Assembly (NCBI GenBank): GCA_040902655.1
Contig: JBBDWV010000014.1
Coordinates: 96,952-160,951, forward strand
From: Mycobacteriales bacterium
GTDB lineage: Bacteria; Actinomycetota; Actinomycetes; Mycobacteriales; SCTD01
Length of the DNA: 64,000 nucleotides
Reading direction: 5' to 3'
The notes below the pieces were generated by a model. The model made no database searches. It saw only the letters and a list, made by a program, of their open reading frames with translations, and was not told the origin of the DNA. Positions 8,882 to 37,819 of the stretch are shown here, in pieces (the stretch's first letter is position 1; each line of letters opens with the position of its first letter). A program made the translations under genes and the position numbers.

Positions 8882-8937
8882 CAAGATCTTCGGAACATCC
8901 ACAGGACCCTGGCCCTGTGGATGTTCCGAAGATCTTG
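8882..8937. repeat. 56-bp perfect palindrome, copy 2 of a dispersed repeat
   Basis: Left arm 8882-8905 and right arm 8914-8937 are perfect 24-base inverted repeats (ends CAAGATCTTC/GAAGATCTTG) around ACCCTGGC. Compared with 1560-1615 the arms are nearly identical and the centre is reversed. The site lies between the convergent sdhB and the leftward membrane-protein gene, so it could also stop transcription from both sides, but there is no T-tract. Confidence 0.92.
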
Positions 8938-33898: not shown

Positions 33899-34312
33899 TC
33901 AGGCGGCGGTCGAGCCGCCGACGTTGTGCTGGACCCACTCGACGATCGACTGCGTCGTGGCGCCGGGGGTGAAGACCTTGGCCACGCCCAACTCGGCGAG
34001 CAACGGCAGATCGTCCTCGGGGATGATCCCGCCGCCGAAGACCACGACGTCCTCGGCGCCGCGCTCCTTCAGCAGCTGCGTCACGCGCTGGAACAGCGTC
34101 ATGTGCGCCCCCGACAGCACCGAGAGCCCGACGCAGTCGGCGTCCTCCTGGACCGTCGTCTCCACGATCTGCTCCGGCGTCTGGTGCAGGCCGGTGTAGA
34201 TGACCTCCATGCCGGCGTCGCGCAGCGCGCGCGCCACGACCTTGGCGCCACGGTCGTGGCCGTCGAGGCCGGGCTTGGCGACGACCACGCGGATGCGGCC
34301 GGGGCTGGTCAC
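33899..34312 (-). CDS. Stand-alone cobalamin-binding subunit of an acyl-CoA mutase
   Basis: 137 residues from GTG 34312. A B12-binding Rossmann-like domain: [20 protein letters not shown] with the DxHxxG motif (D17, H19, G22), whose His is the lower cobalt ligand, then GLSVLSGAH and [11 protein letters not shown]. Size and sequence match IcmB/methylmalonyl-CoA mutase small subunits. No large subunit is adjacent; the only candidate in the window is the B12-domain-less mutase at 1844-3421. Confident on fold; the pairing is inferred. Confidence 0.93.
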
Positions 34313-34458: not shown

Positions 34459-34486
34459 TTGCTCTGTTGCCGCTCAAAGCGATAAC
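34459..34486 (+). promoter_or_regulatory. Possible promoter of the M23 peptidase leader
   Basis: TTGCTC (34459-34464) and GATAAC (34481-34486) are spaced 16 bp. The region from 34440 to 34500 is clearly more AT-rich than its surroundings. The match to a housekeeping sigma promoter is moderate. It would give a leader of roughly 105-110 bases before the TTG start. Confidence 0.35.
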
Positions 34487-34497
34487 GTCGGTGTAAC

Positions 34498-34582
34498 GAC
34501 CCGCCTCCAGGTCCCCTCCGCGGGGCGGGTCAGGATCGGAGCAGACCCCCTGGAGGGGGTCTGGTTCGTACTGTCCTGACCC
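34498..34582 (+). promoter_or_regulatory. Structured 5' leader with mutually exclusive helices
   Basis: Three perfect inverted repeats: GACCCGCC (34498-34505) with GGCGGGTC (34524-34531); GGGTCAGGA (34527-34535) with TCCTGACCC (34574-34582); and, inside the latter, CAGACCCCC (34542-34550) with GGGGGTCTG (34555-34563). The first and second helices share bases 34527-34531 and cannot form together. This is the layout of an attenuator or a ligand-sensing RNA just ahead of the M23 peptidase start. I found no match to the c-di-AMP (ydaO) riboswitch core. Confidence 0.55.
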
Positions 34583-34601
34583 CGACGACGGAGCCGAGAA
34601 C

Positions 34602-35315
34602 TTGCCCCCGCAGCAGTCGCGTGCGCGCCATGTCGCCCCCAGGCCGCCCCGGACGCGCACCGCGCTGCTGCCCGGTGTCCTGCTCGCAGCGGCCGCCAGC
34701 GCCTTCGCCGGTCTGGCCGCCTTCCCGGCCTCGGCGGTCGACATCGCACCGCGGGTGACCGCAGCCTCCGCCCTGCAGCCGGTGGCCCTGCCGGCGGCGG
34801 AGCAGACCAACGTGGCGCTCAACAGCGCGCTCGAGCAGGGTCTGGTTGTCGCGAACAAGCCCAAGCCGCCGGCGGCTAAGCCGGAGCGCGCCTCGCGGGA
34901 CCGCGACGCGCCGGCCGCCGAGAGCAAGGCGGCCTTCGTGCGGCCCGGCCTGGGGCGCCTCACCAGTGCCTACGGCCGCCGGTGGGGGCGCCTGCACGCC
35001 GGCATCGACCTAGCGTCGGGGGTCGGCTCCCCGATCCGGGCGGTCACCAACGCCACTGTGGTCTCCGCCGGCTGGGAGGGCGGCTACGGTCGCTGTGTCC
35101 GCCTGATCCACGCCGACGGCACGGTCACGGTGTACGGCCACATGAGCGCGATCCTCGTCGGCGCCGGGGACCGCGTCGCCGCCGGGGAGCAGATCGGCCG
35201 GGAGGGCAACACCGGCCAGTCGACCGGCCCGCACCTGCACTTCGAGGTGCGCATCAACGGGACCCCCGTGAACCCGGTCAGTTGGTTGAGCAAGCGCGGC
35301 GTCGCCGTCCGATAG
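34602..35315 (+). CDS. Secreted M23 family metallopeptidase (peptidoglycan endopeptidase)
   Basis: 237 residues from a TTG at 34602, eight bases after GGAG. The N-terminus is a basic, probably cleaved signal sequence (RTRTALLPGVLLAAAASAFA), followed by a linker of about 70 residues rich in Lys, Pro and Ala. The LytM domain covers about 115-230, with HAGIDL (first zinc ligands), GHMSAILVGAGDRVAAGEQIG and HLHFEVRINGTPVNP. All zinc residues are present, so it should be active. It cuts peptide cross-links in the cell wall. The structured leader upstream suggests post-transcriptional control. Confidence 0.92.
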   Translation: MPPQQSRARHVAPRPPRTRTALLPGVLLAAAASAFAGLAAFPASAVDIAPRVTAASALQPVALPAAEQTNVALNSALEQGLVVANKPKPPAAKPERASRDRDAPAAESKAAFVRPGLGRLTSAYGRRWGRLHAGIDLASGVGSPIRAVTNATVVSAGWEGGYGRCVRLIHADGTVTVYGHMSAILVGAGDRVAAGEQIGREGNTGQSTGPHLHFEVRINGTPVNPVSWLSKRGVAVR

Positions 35316-35365: not shown

Positions 35366-37696
35366 TCAGAGCTTGTCCAACGGGGCGTAGCGCAGCAGCA
35401 GCCACTTGGCGCCCGTCGCCCCGCCGAAGTCCACCTCGGCCTGCGCCTTGTCCCCGGCGCCGCGGGTCGCGGTGACGGTGCCCAGGCCGAAGGCGTCGTG
35501 GGTCACCCGGTCGCCCGGCTCGAGGTTCGGGATCGGCCGCAGCCCGGGACCGGCGGACCGACTGCGCGCCGTGCCGACCAGCCGGTCCGCCATGCGGCTC
35601 GACGCAGGGGCCGGTGCCGCCACGGAGGACTCCTCCCGCTGCCACTCGACCAGCCCGTCAGGGACTTCGTCGAGAAAACGCGACGCCGGGTTGGAGGAGA
35701 TCTGCCCCCAGGCGCTCCGCATGTGTGCGCGGGAGAGGTAGAGCCGCTCGCGGGCGCGGGTGATGCCCACATAGGCCAGCCGCCGCTCCTCCTGCAGCTC
35801 GCGTTCGTCGCCCAGGGCGCGCAGGTGTGGGAACACCCCGTCCTCGAGACCGGTGAGGAACACGACCGGGTACTCCAGGCCCTTGGCGGCGTGCAGCGTC
35901 ATCAACGTGACCACGCCGTCGGCATCACCTTCCGGGTCGGGGATCGAGTCGGCATCGGCGACCAGGGAGACCTGCTCCATGAAGTCGGCGACGCCGCCGT
36001 CGGGCACCCGCTCGCTGAACTCCCGGGCGACGCCGACCAGCTCGGAGAGGTTCTCGACCCGGCTCTCGTCCTGCGGGTCGACGCTCTGCGCCAGCTCGGT
36101 GAGGTAGCCGGTGCGGTCGAGAACCGCCTCGAGCACCTCTGCCGGCGGCATGTTCCCCTCGGCGAGCGCACGCAACTCGTCCATCAGCTCGGCGAACTGG
36201 CGCACGGCGTTGGCGCTGCGCGTCGCCATGCCGGGGACCTCGTCGCAGCGGCGCAGCGCCTCGGCGAACGGCACCCGCTCGCGGCCGGCGAAGGCCTCCA
36301 GGCAGGCCTCGGCCCGGTCGCCTATCCCGCGCCGCGGGGTGTTGAGGATCCGGCGCAGGCTGACCGTGTCGGCCGGGTTGGTCAGCACCCGCAGGTAGGC
36401 CAGGGCGTCCCGGACCTCCCTGCGCTCGTAGAAGCGCACCCCGCCGACGACCTTGTACGGCAGGCCGACCCGGATGAACACCTCCTCGAAGACGCGGGAC
36501 TGCGCGTTGGTGCGGTAGAAGACGGCCACCTGGTGCGGCTTGACGCCGTGCTCGTCGCCGAGCCGGTCGACCTCTCCGGCGACGAAAGCGGCCTCGTCGT
36601 GCTGGTTGTCCGCGACGTAGCCGACGATCGGGTCGCCCTCGCCGGAGTCGGTCCACAGCCGCTTGGGCTTGCGGCTCGGATTCTTGGCGATGACGGCGTT
36701 GGCCGCCGACAGGATCGTCTGCGTGGAGCGGTAGTTCTGCTCGAGCAGCACGACCTTCGCGTCGGGGTAGTCGTTCTCGAAGTCCTCGATGTTGCGGATG
36801 TCGGCGCCCCGGAAGGCGTAGATCGACTGGTCGGCGTCACCGACCACACACAGCTCGGCCGGCGGGATCGCGCCGGGAGCCGTCGCGCGCTGCCCGCGGC
36901 CCCCGGTGGCGCCGACCAGCTCGCGGACCAGGACGTACTGCGCGTGGTTGGTGTCCTGGTACTCGTCCACCAGCACGTGCCGGAAGCGCCGCCGGTAGTG
37001 CTCAGCAACGTCCGGGAAGGCCTGGAACAGGTCGACGGTCGTCGCAATCAGGTCGTCGAAGTCCAGGGCGTTGGCCTCGCGCAGCCGGGCCTGATAGGTC
37101 GCGTAGACCTCGGCGACGGTGCGGTCGTGCTCGGTCTCCGCCTTGGCCGCCGCGCTCTCGTGGTCGACCAGCTCGTTCTTCAGGTCGCTGACCTTGTTGC
37201 TCATCACGCGGGGCGGGAAGCGCTTGGCGTCCACGTCGAGGTCGCGGCAGACCAGGGTCATCAGCCGCTGCGCGTCGGCCGAGTCGTAGATCGAGAAGGT
37301 GCTGGTGAAGCCGAGCTTCCTGGCCTCGGCGCGCAGGATCCGGACGCAGGCGGAGTGGAAGGTCAGCACCCACATGGCGCGAGCACGCGGCCCGACAGCC
37401 ACGGCGACCCGCTCACGCATCTCCCCGGCGGCCTTGTTGGTGAAGGTGATGGCCAGCACCTCGCCGGGCTGGACGTGCCGTGCCGCCAGTAGGTAGGCGA
37501 TCCGAGTCGTGAGCGCCTTGGTCTTGCCGGACCCCGCACCGGCGACGATCAGCAGCGGGCTGCCCTCGTGCACGACGGCCTCGCGCTGCTGGGGGTTCAG
37601 CCCGTCGAGGAGCCGGTCGACGCTCGGCCGCGACGGCGCGGGGACCGCCGGGCCGAGGTCGTCGTCCGCGCCGACGACATCTCCACGGGGGCTCAC
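35366..37696 (-). CDS. pcrA: ATP-dependent DNA helicase PcrA/UvrD
   Basis: 776 residues from GTG 37696; longer starts at ATG 37726 or GTG 37741 are possible. SF1A motifs: Walker A IVAGAGSGKTKA, Ia ITFTNKAAGEMRERV, Walker B VLVDEYQDTN, III GDADQSIYAFRGA, IV QNYRST, and the C-terminal VTLMTLHAAKGLEYPVVF and YVGITRARERLYL. A C-terminal Tudor-like region (DRVTHDAFGLGTV) is typical of actinobacterial PcrA. It unwinds DNA 3'-5' in repair and replication. TAGACT at 37704-37709 (minus strand) lies 7 bases before GTG 37696, as in leaderless actinobacterial promoters. Confidence 0.95.
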   Translation of the reverse strand: MSPRGDVVGADDDLGPAVPAPSRPSVDRLLDGLNPQQREAVVHEGSPLLIVAGAGSGKTKALTTRIAYLLAARHVQPGEVLAITFTNKAAGEMRERVAVAVGPRARAMWVLTFHSACVRILRAEARKLGFTSTFSIYDSADAQRLMTLVCRDLDVDAKRFPPRVMSNKVSDLKNELVDHESAAAKAETEHDRTVAEVYATYQARLREANALDFDDLIATTVDLFQAFPDVAEHYRRRFRHVLVDEYQDTNHAQYVLVRELVGATGGRGQRATAPGAIPPAELCVVGDADQSIYAFRGADIRNIEDFENDYPDAKVVLLEQNYRSTQTILSAANAVIAKNPSRKPKRLWTDSGEGDPIVGYVADNQHDEAAFVAGEVDRLGDEHGVKPHQVAVFYRTNAQSRVFEEVFIRVGLPYKVVGGVRFYERREVRDALAYLRVLTNPADTVSLRRILNTPRRGIGDRAEACLEAFAGRERVPFAEALRRCDEVPGMATRSANAVRQFAELMDELRALAEGNMPPAEVLEAVLDRTGYLTELAQSVDPQDESRVENLSELVGVAREFSERVPDGGVADFMEQVSLVADADSIPDPEGDADGVVTLMTLHAAKGLEYPVVFLTGLEDGVFPHLRALGDERELQEERRLAYVGITRARERLYLSRAHMRSAWGQISSNPASRFLDEVPDGLVEWQREESSVAAPAPASSRMADRLVGTARSRSAGPGLRPIPNLEPGDRVTHDAFGLGTVTATRGAGDKAQAEVDFGGATGAKWLLLRYAPLDKL

Positions 37697-37819
37697 CCGG
37701 ACCAGTCTAGGTTCACCTCCCGACATCCAGGCCACCCTCACCGTCCCTTGATCGTCCCCTCGACCATCCCTTGATCCACGCGGAAGTTGACGTGGTTTCA
37801 GGGCACCGGAGCACCTCGA

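Follow-up and report, generated by a model that had tools for sequence, protein, structure and literature searches.

A putative MtrA-type operator and a predicted 5′-terminal hairpin in the promoter and leader of a pcrA-linked M23 peptidase gene in an actinobacterial family

Genomic context of the M23 peptidase gene

The window analysed here, a stretch of 64,000 nt from the genome of a Mycobacteriales bacterium, contains a gene for a secreted or anchored M23 peptidase, which is convergent to a pcrA/uvrD1-type helicase gene and divergent from a gene for a B12-binding protein (Table 1), with sucC- and sucD-like genes located farther upstream. In Mycobacterium tuberculosis, the M23 gene Rv0950c is flanked by uvrD1 and sucC (PMC8594824), and hence both the gene family and the neighbourhood are the same as those of the M23 gene in the window. 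The best explanation for the region with the inverted repeats is that it represents the promoter and 5′ leader of this pcrA-linked wall peptidase gene. No further copies of the M23 leader were found in the genome (for pairs of MtrA-type half-sites, see the genome search below). In the draft genomes G001, G006, G010, G013 and G014 the contig stops at or within the M23 gene or the leader preceding it, and such contig breaks in several drafts of the family perhaps reflect poor assembly of this region.

Table 1. Features of the M23 peptidase locus, in window coordinates
Feature	Position	Strand	Remarks
B12-binding protein gene	33899..34312	-	Pfam PF02310
-35-like hexamer TTGCTC	34459..34464	+	putative -35
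Direct repeat ATAACG-TCGGT-GTAACG	34482..34498	+	11-bp period; putative MtrA-type (OmpR-family) operator over -10 and predicted start
-10 hexamer TAACGT	34483..34488	+	TAnnnT type; putative -10
Transcription start	34495..34495	+	predicted from the -10 position, within one to three bases
Hairpin A	34498..34531	+	at predicted 5′ end of transcript; pairing kept via compensatory changes across the family
Stem A	GACCCGCC 34498-34505 with GGCGGGTC 34524-34531	+	8 bp; 10 bp counting a G-U pair
Stem B	GGGTCAGGA 34527-34535 with TCCTGACCC 34574-34582	+	9 bp; competitor of A
Hairpin C	CAGACCCCC 34542-34550 with GGGGGTCTG 34555-34563	+	9 bp; enclosed by B
Conserved CCCCGACGACGGAGCC	34580..34595	+	contains Shine-Dalgarno GGAG 34590-34593, 8 nt ahead of the startcodon
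M23 peptidase gene	34602..35315	+	237 aa; TTG start; Pfam PF01551, 116 bits
pcrA/uvrD1-type helicase gene	35366..37741	-	Pfam UvrD domains; identified also from relatives

Inverted repeats in the leader

A preliminary description, made from the sequence of the window, had presented the 85-nt stretch 34498–34582 as a switch-like leader RNA with three perfect inverted repeats. All three were confirmed at the positions given, as were the overlap of stems A and B at five bases (34527–34531) and the gap of 19 bases that separates 34582 from the TTG start (34602). The stretch has a folding energy of -53.4 kcal/mol (z -4.7), which was equalled by none of 200 shuffled sequences, and when 2738 segments of comparable GC content from the window were folded, one was as stable; the longer leader folds less extremely than the 85-nt core, with z-scores of -2.7 to -3.2. 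The leader is real and conserved, and the folding of the 85-nt repeats goes beyond chance.

The promoter and its direct repeat

The most important flanking part is formed by the promoter and a direct repeat at 34459–34498, just 5′ of the inverted repeats, which the preliminary description had overlooked. Counting the window, 17 members of its family had a leader that could be read, and these leaders were compared. All 17 share one layout, consisting of a direct repeat RTAACGTNNNGRTAACG with the -10 sequence inside it, a hairpin from the predicted 5′ end onwards, and a Shine-Dalgarno sequence, with a -35 present in 16 of the 17. The conserved letters are concentrated in the promoter with its direct repeat and at the Shine-Dalgarno sequence. 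At window positions 34580–34595 the conservation (CCCCGAYGACGGAGCC) reaches well past the Shine-Dalgarno GGAG.

The TAAC and the last T of the putative -10 hexamer are invariant (17/17), and a TTG is positioned 16–17 nt ahead of RTAACG in 15 leaders, with TTT in one and no counterpart in the remaining leader (L019). A consensus scan did not find an E. coli-type promoter in the region, and such an absence is not unusual in high-GC actinobacteria. The second half of the direct repeat, though located at the predicted start point, is as conserved as the first, while the intervening bases vary between the 17 leaders; the variants of the halves consist of ATAACA as first half (L012), GTGACG as second half (L014) and TAACA as second half in three leaders. 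The two RTAAC-type halves with their 11-bp period are found here as ATAACGTCGGTGTAACG, and the pattern RTAAC-N6-RTAAC has a single occurrence in the 3.56-Mb genome, which is the site at 34482–34498.

The TAACG pair may also be read as a mere -10 box followed by a favoured start sequence, with no regulator involved and with the hairpins forming an unregulated leader structure, as the -35 is found at 16–17 nt upstream and the first half makes a good -10. However, the second half GTAACG is conserved like the -10, which is unusual for start regions, and related boxes are present ahead of the same gene in other families (see below), and this reading is in our opinion improbable.

MtrA as candidate regulator

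The consensus for MtrA-type operators was taken from three published sources (PMC3353115, PMC5650626, PMC10704036). The MtrA site of Corynebacterium glutamicum is (A/G)TAACAATttn(A/G)TAACAAT, with binding of MtrA near the -10 associated with repression, as stated in a review (PMC3353115), while the site of Streptomyces coelicolor is G/T-T-G/A-A-C-C-N5-G-T-G/T-A-C-N (PMC5650626), and OmpR-type regulators share the kind of box known for GlnR, GTnAC-n6-GTnAC (PMC10704036). Among the genes under MtrA control are mepA and nlpC of C. glutamicum, which are repressed by MtrA (PMC9602371), and M. tuberculosis Rv0950c, which is tied to MtrA sites by ChIP-seq (PMC5845002), MtrA there being called a repressor of such genes. 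These are likewise wall peptidase genes, with RTAAC halves, an 11-bp period and a site at the -10, and Rv0950c shares the uvrD1/pcrA–sucC surroundings of the gene in the window (PMC8594824). In contrast to these three genes, the window represents another lineage, its MtrA site is a predicted one, and the sequence following RTA reads ACGT or ACGA instead of ACAAT; also, a leader hairpin is not reported for mepA, nlpC or Rv0950c in the excerpts of these sources, unlike for the gene in the window.

The genome encodes MtrA (371.6 bits, cut-off 300) and MtrB (602.9, cut-off 450) side by side, and the first half of the repeat overlaps the predicted -10, which would place the site near the -10 as for MtrA-repressed genes. 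The looser pattern RTNAC-N6-RTNAC was detected before pcrA-linked M23 genes elsewhere, in 3/3, 2/2 and 2/5 loci of families f14, f8 and f16, respectively, with a chance expectation of ~0.01 each (per 450 bases). Of ten loci with pcrA linkage in named genomes, eight also have it, and Mycobacterium, Rhodococcus, Gordonia, Tsukamurella and Amycolatopsis are represented among them. A search with the plain MtrA pattern allowing two mismatches was uninformative, giving 66 matches versus 58 for the reversed pattern.

In M23 promoters of Pseudonocardiaceae-type (L101, L102, L106, L128, L139, L143) and Mycolicibacterium (L112, L114) loci, phased half-sites were observed, which consist of GTTAC(T/C)GTCC or GTTAACGTC followed by RTNAC-N6-RTCAC, ~22 and 11 bp apart. 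Such an arrangement would suit the binding of several MtrA dimers.

Alternatively, another regulator of the OmpR family, of the GlnR or AfsQ1 type, could act on the direct repeat, with the rest of the mechanism proposed below unchanged. The genome encodes several MtrA-like response regulators, and the GlnR box has the same 5+6+5 spacing as the repeat in the window, with near-identical letters (PMC10704036). The known targets of GlnR lie mainly in nitrogen metabolism, whereas the target in the window is a wall peptidase gene; moreover, the M. tuberculosis counterpart of this gene is linked to MtrA by ChIP (PMC5845002), and the RTAAC half-site is that of C. glutamicum MtrA (PMC3353115), so that we regard a GlnR- or AfsQ1-type regulator as unlikely.

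The presence of a near-perfect MtrA-type site in the promoter makes control at the DNA level, the usual actinobacterial way, most likely. The strongest conserved feature of the leader is the putative MtrA-type operator over the promoter, followed by the family-specific hairpin at the predicted 5′ end. The preliminary description had suspected a leader RNA switch, perhaps of another type than the c-di-AMP riboswitch; the conserved letters point instead to a DNA-binding regulator of the MtrA type. The pcrA-linked M23 peptidase is thereby likely to be under MtrA control in a further, unstudied actinobacterial family, and the related boxes before the same gene in relatives from Mycobacterium, Rhodococcus, Gordonia and Amycolatopsis suggest that the operator is old.

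Covariation and probable role of hairpin A

Hairpin A begins at the end of the direct repeat, or a few bases from it, in every species of the family. Its arms differ by species (GACCCGCC, GACCACCC, GGCCACCT, GACCGCGC, GGCCCGCT and GGCTCGCT) with their complementarity kept, and its loop ranges from 3 to ~26 nt. As the automatic alignment of the 17 leaders misplaced the arms, these were aligned by hand for counting of the pairs, with exclusion of L020, which needs a bulge. In this alignment 88.5% of the cells were paired versus 69.3% after shuffling, and six of the eight pairs had changed on both sides. The covariation score was 0.59 compared with 0.22 in shuffles, none of 500 shuffles being as good, and pairing fell to 28–42% in slid registers (~40% for a slide of one column). 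All these values are somewhat overstated by the choice of the 3′ arms by hand as best partners and by the relatedness of the sequences. The compensatory changes which the preliminary description had proposed to look for in homologous leaders are thus present for hairpin A. Tested as an anchored stem against shuffled leaders, hairpin A gave p <0.03 in 11 of the 17 leaders and 0.03 in one more, with a combined p of 2e-11 that is inflated by relatedness; L013 and L014 form only a weak version of the hairpin, and L020 a bulged one.

Outside the family, hairpin A was detected in L107 and L108 of family f16 (p 0.08 and 0.007) and nowhere else. In these two loci a hairpin directly follows the box (CGGCCCGCC/GGTGGGCCG; CGCCGGT/ACCGGCG).

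The position of the inverted repeat directly behind the start, a common place for operators, would also suit a DNA operator of a dimeric repressor, without an RNA hairpin being formed. Such an operator is highly improbable, since the arms differ widely (GACCCGCC, GACCACCC, GGCCACCT, GACCGCGC, GGCTCGCT) and the spacing of the arms shifts, but the complementarity is kept. The free sequence and loop size indicate that A acts as a stem in the RNA and has neither a pocket nor an operator of defined sequence, and its location at the predicted 5′ end suggests protection of the mRNA.

Several bacterial mRNAs are stabilised by 5′ stem-loops (PMC7509114). As in the ompA, vacA and recA leaders described there, the hairpin lies near the 5′ end (a predicted one here, and a few bases away), its sequence is free and its pairing is kept, with the pairing being under selection. 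By analogy with these leaders, hairpin A probably functions as a 5′-terminal stabiliser of the mRNA. The covarying hairpin is a directly testable candidate for an effect on mRNA life.

Stems B and C and the riboswitch question

Stem B was significant only in the four closest species (p 0.01–0.04), with a weak variant in a fifth (L014), and was unsupported in the other genera of the family (combined p 0.75). A second hairpin in the position of C was modestly supported family-wide (combined p 3e-4). When the leader of the window is folded at full length, the structure of lowest energy uses B and pairs the Shine-Dalgarno sequence, yet across the family leaders the pairing of the Shine-Dalgarno sequence was not above that of shuffled leaders. 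No terminator or attenuator was found in the leader, and there was no loop or bulge sequence in the family leaders that is conserved enough for a pocket. A search of the window against Rfam gave nothing at gathering score, and a permissive search gave only chance matches with E-values of 2.6 or worse, which agrees with the earlier statement that the core of the known c-di-AMP riboswitch is not visible here; in the absence of a covariance-model match to any Rfam family, the c-di-AMP (ydaO) riboswitch was ruled out. Such a ydaO/c-di-AMP riboswitch precedes C. glutamicum nlpC (PMC9960051), and the leader in the window is likewise a structured leader of a wall peptidase gene, under MtrA control in nlpC, but is without an Rfam match and without a conserved core.

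With B restricted to the closest species and hiding of the Shine-Dalgarno sequence at chance level, a riboswitch in the M23 leader is not supported. Mutually exclusive folds conserved among homologues were not found, nor was an expression platform in the form of a terminator or a hidden Shine-Dalgarno sequence in the leader tests. The notion of a switch-like leader RNA is supported for the leader, with its conserved promoter and a start predicted near 34495, upstream of 34531, and unsupported for the switch, as the competition between A and B is confined to four species and a variant in a fifth, and the arms and loops are too variable for a ligand pocket.

A true RNA switch would have A as the on-state and B with C as the off-state, in which B pairs the CUCCG of the A loop with the Shine-Dalgarno CGGAG, and in which a ligand, protein or temperature would set translation. 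The five bases common to A and B and the hidden Shine-Dalgarno sequence in the lowest-energy fold would fit such a switch, as would GGGTCAGG and CCTGACCC, which are constant in four species that differ in their loops and C hairpin, but the remaining family is without B, and the results of the pocket, shuffling and Rfam searches argue against it, making it quite unlikely. There is also little likelihood of a two-state switch (A versus B, with hiding of the Shine-Dalgarno sequence) at the level of one uncultivated actinobacterial genus, of a class outside Rfam, layered on control by MtrA, for which C. glutamicum nlpC, with MtrA and a c-di-AMP riboswitch acting on one gene, would be a parallel.

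Proposed mechanism

An MtrA-controlled promoter combined with a stabilising hairpin at the 5′ end is to us a fairly likely reading of the locus as a whole, one that draws on the sequence and its conservation, the covariation of hairpin A, the uniqueness of the repeat and the presence of MtrAB. Phosphorylated MtrA would most likely bind the direct repeat at 34482–34498, which has the -10 box inside and reaches the predicted start point, and would there block RNA polymerase and repress the gene. Upon release of MtrA, the mRNA would start near 34495 and hairpin A would fold immediately, leaving about three unpaired bases at the 5′ end, and hairpin A, together with C, would most likely shield the message from 5′-end-dependent decay. 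For repeats in leaders beside genes, the locus illustrates that these should be interpreted jointly with the adjacent upstream promoter.

A dispersed palindrome elsewhere in the window

At window positions 8883–8936 we observed a 26-bp perfect palindrome, with arms containing GATCTTCGGAACATCCACAGG, a 4-nt loop and a folding z-score of -6.7. Approximately 24 copies are found on 19 contigs of the genome, compared with 0 matches for a reversed control, and a second copy in the window is located near 1563. The GC content of the palindrome is below that of the genome and some copies differ in a single arm; it is classed as a dispersed palindromic repeat element.
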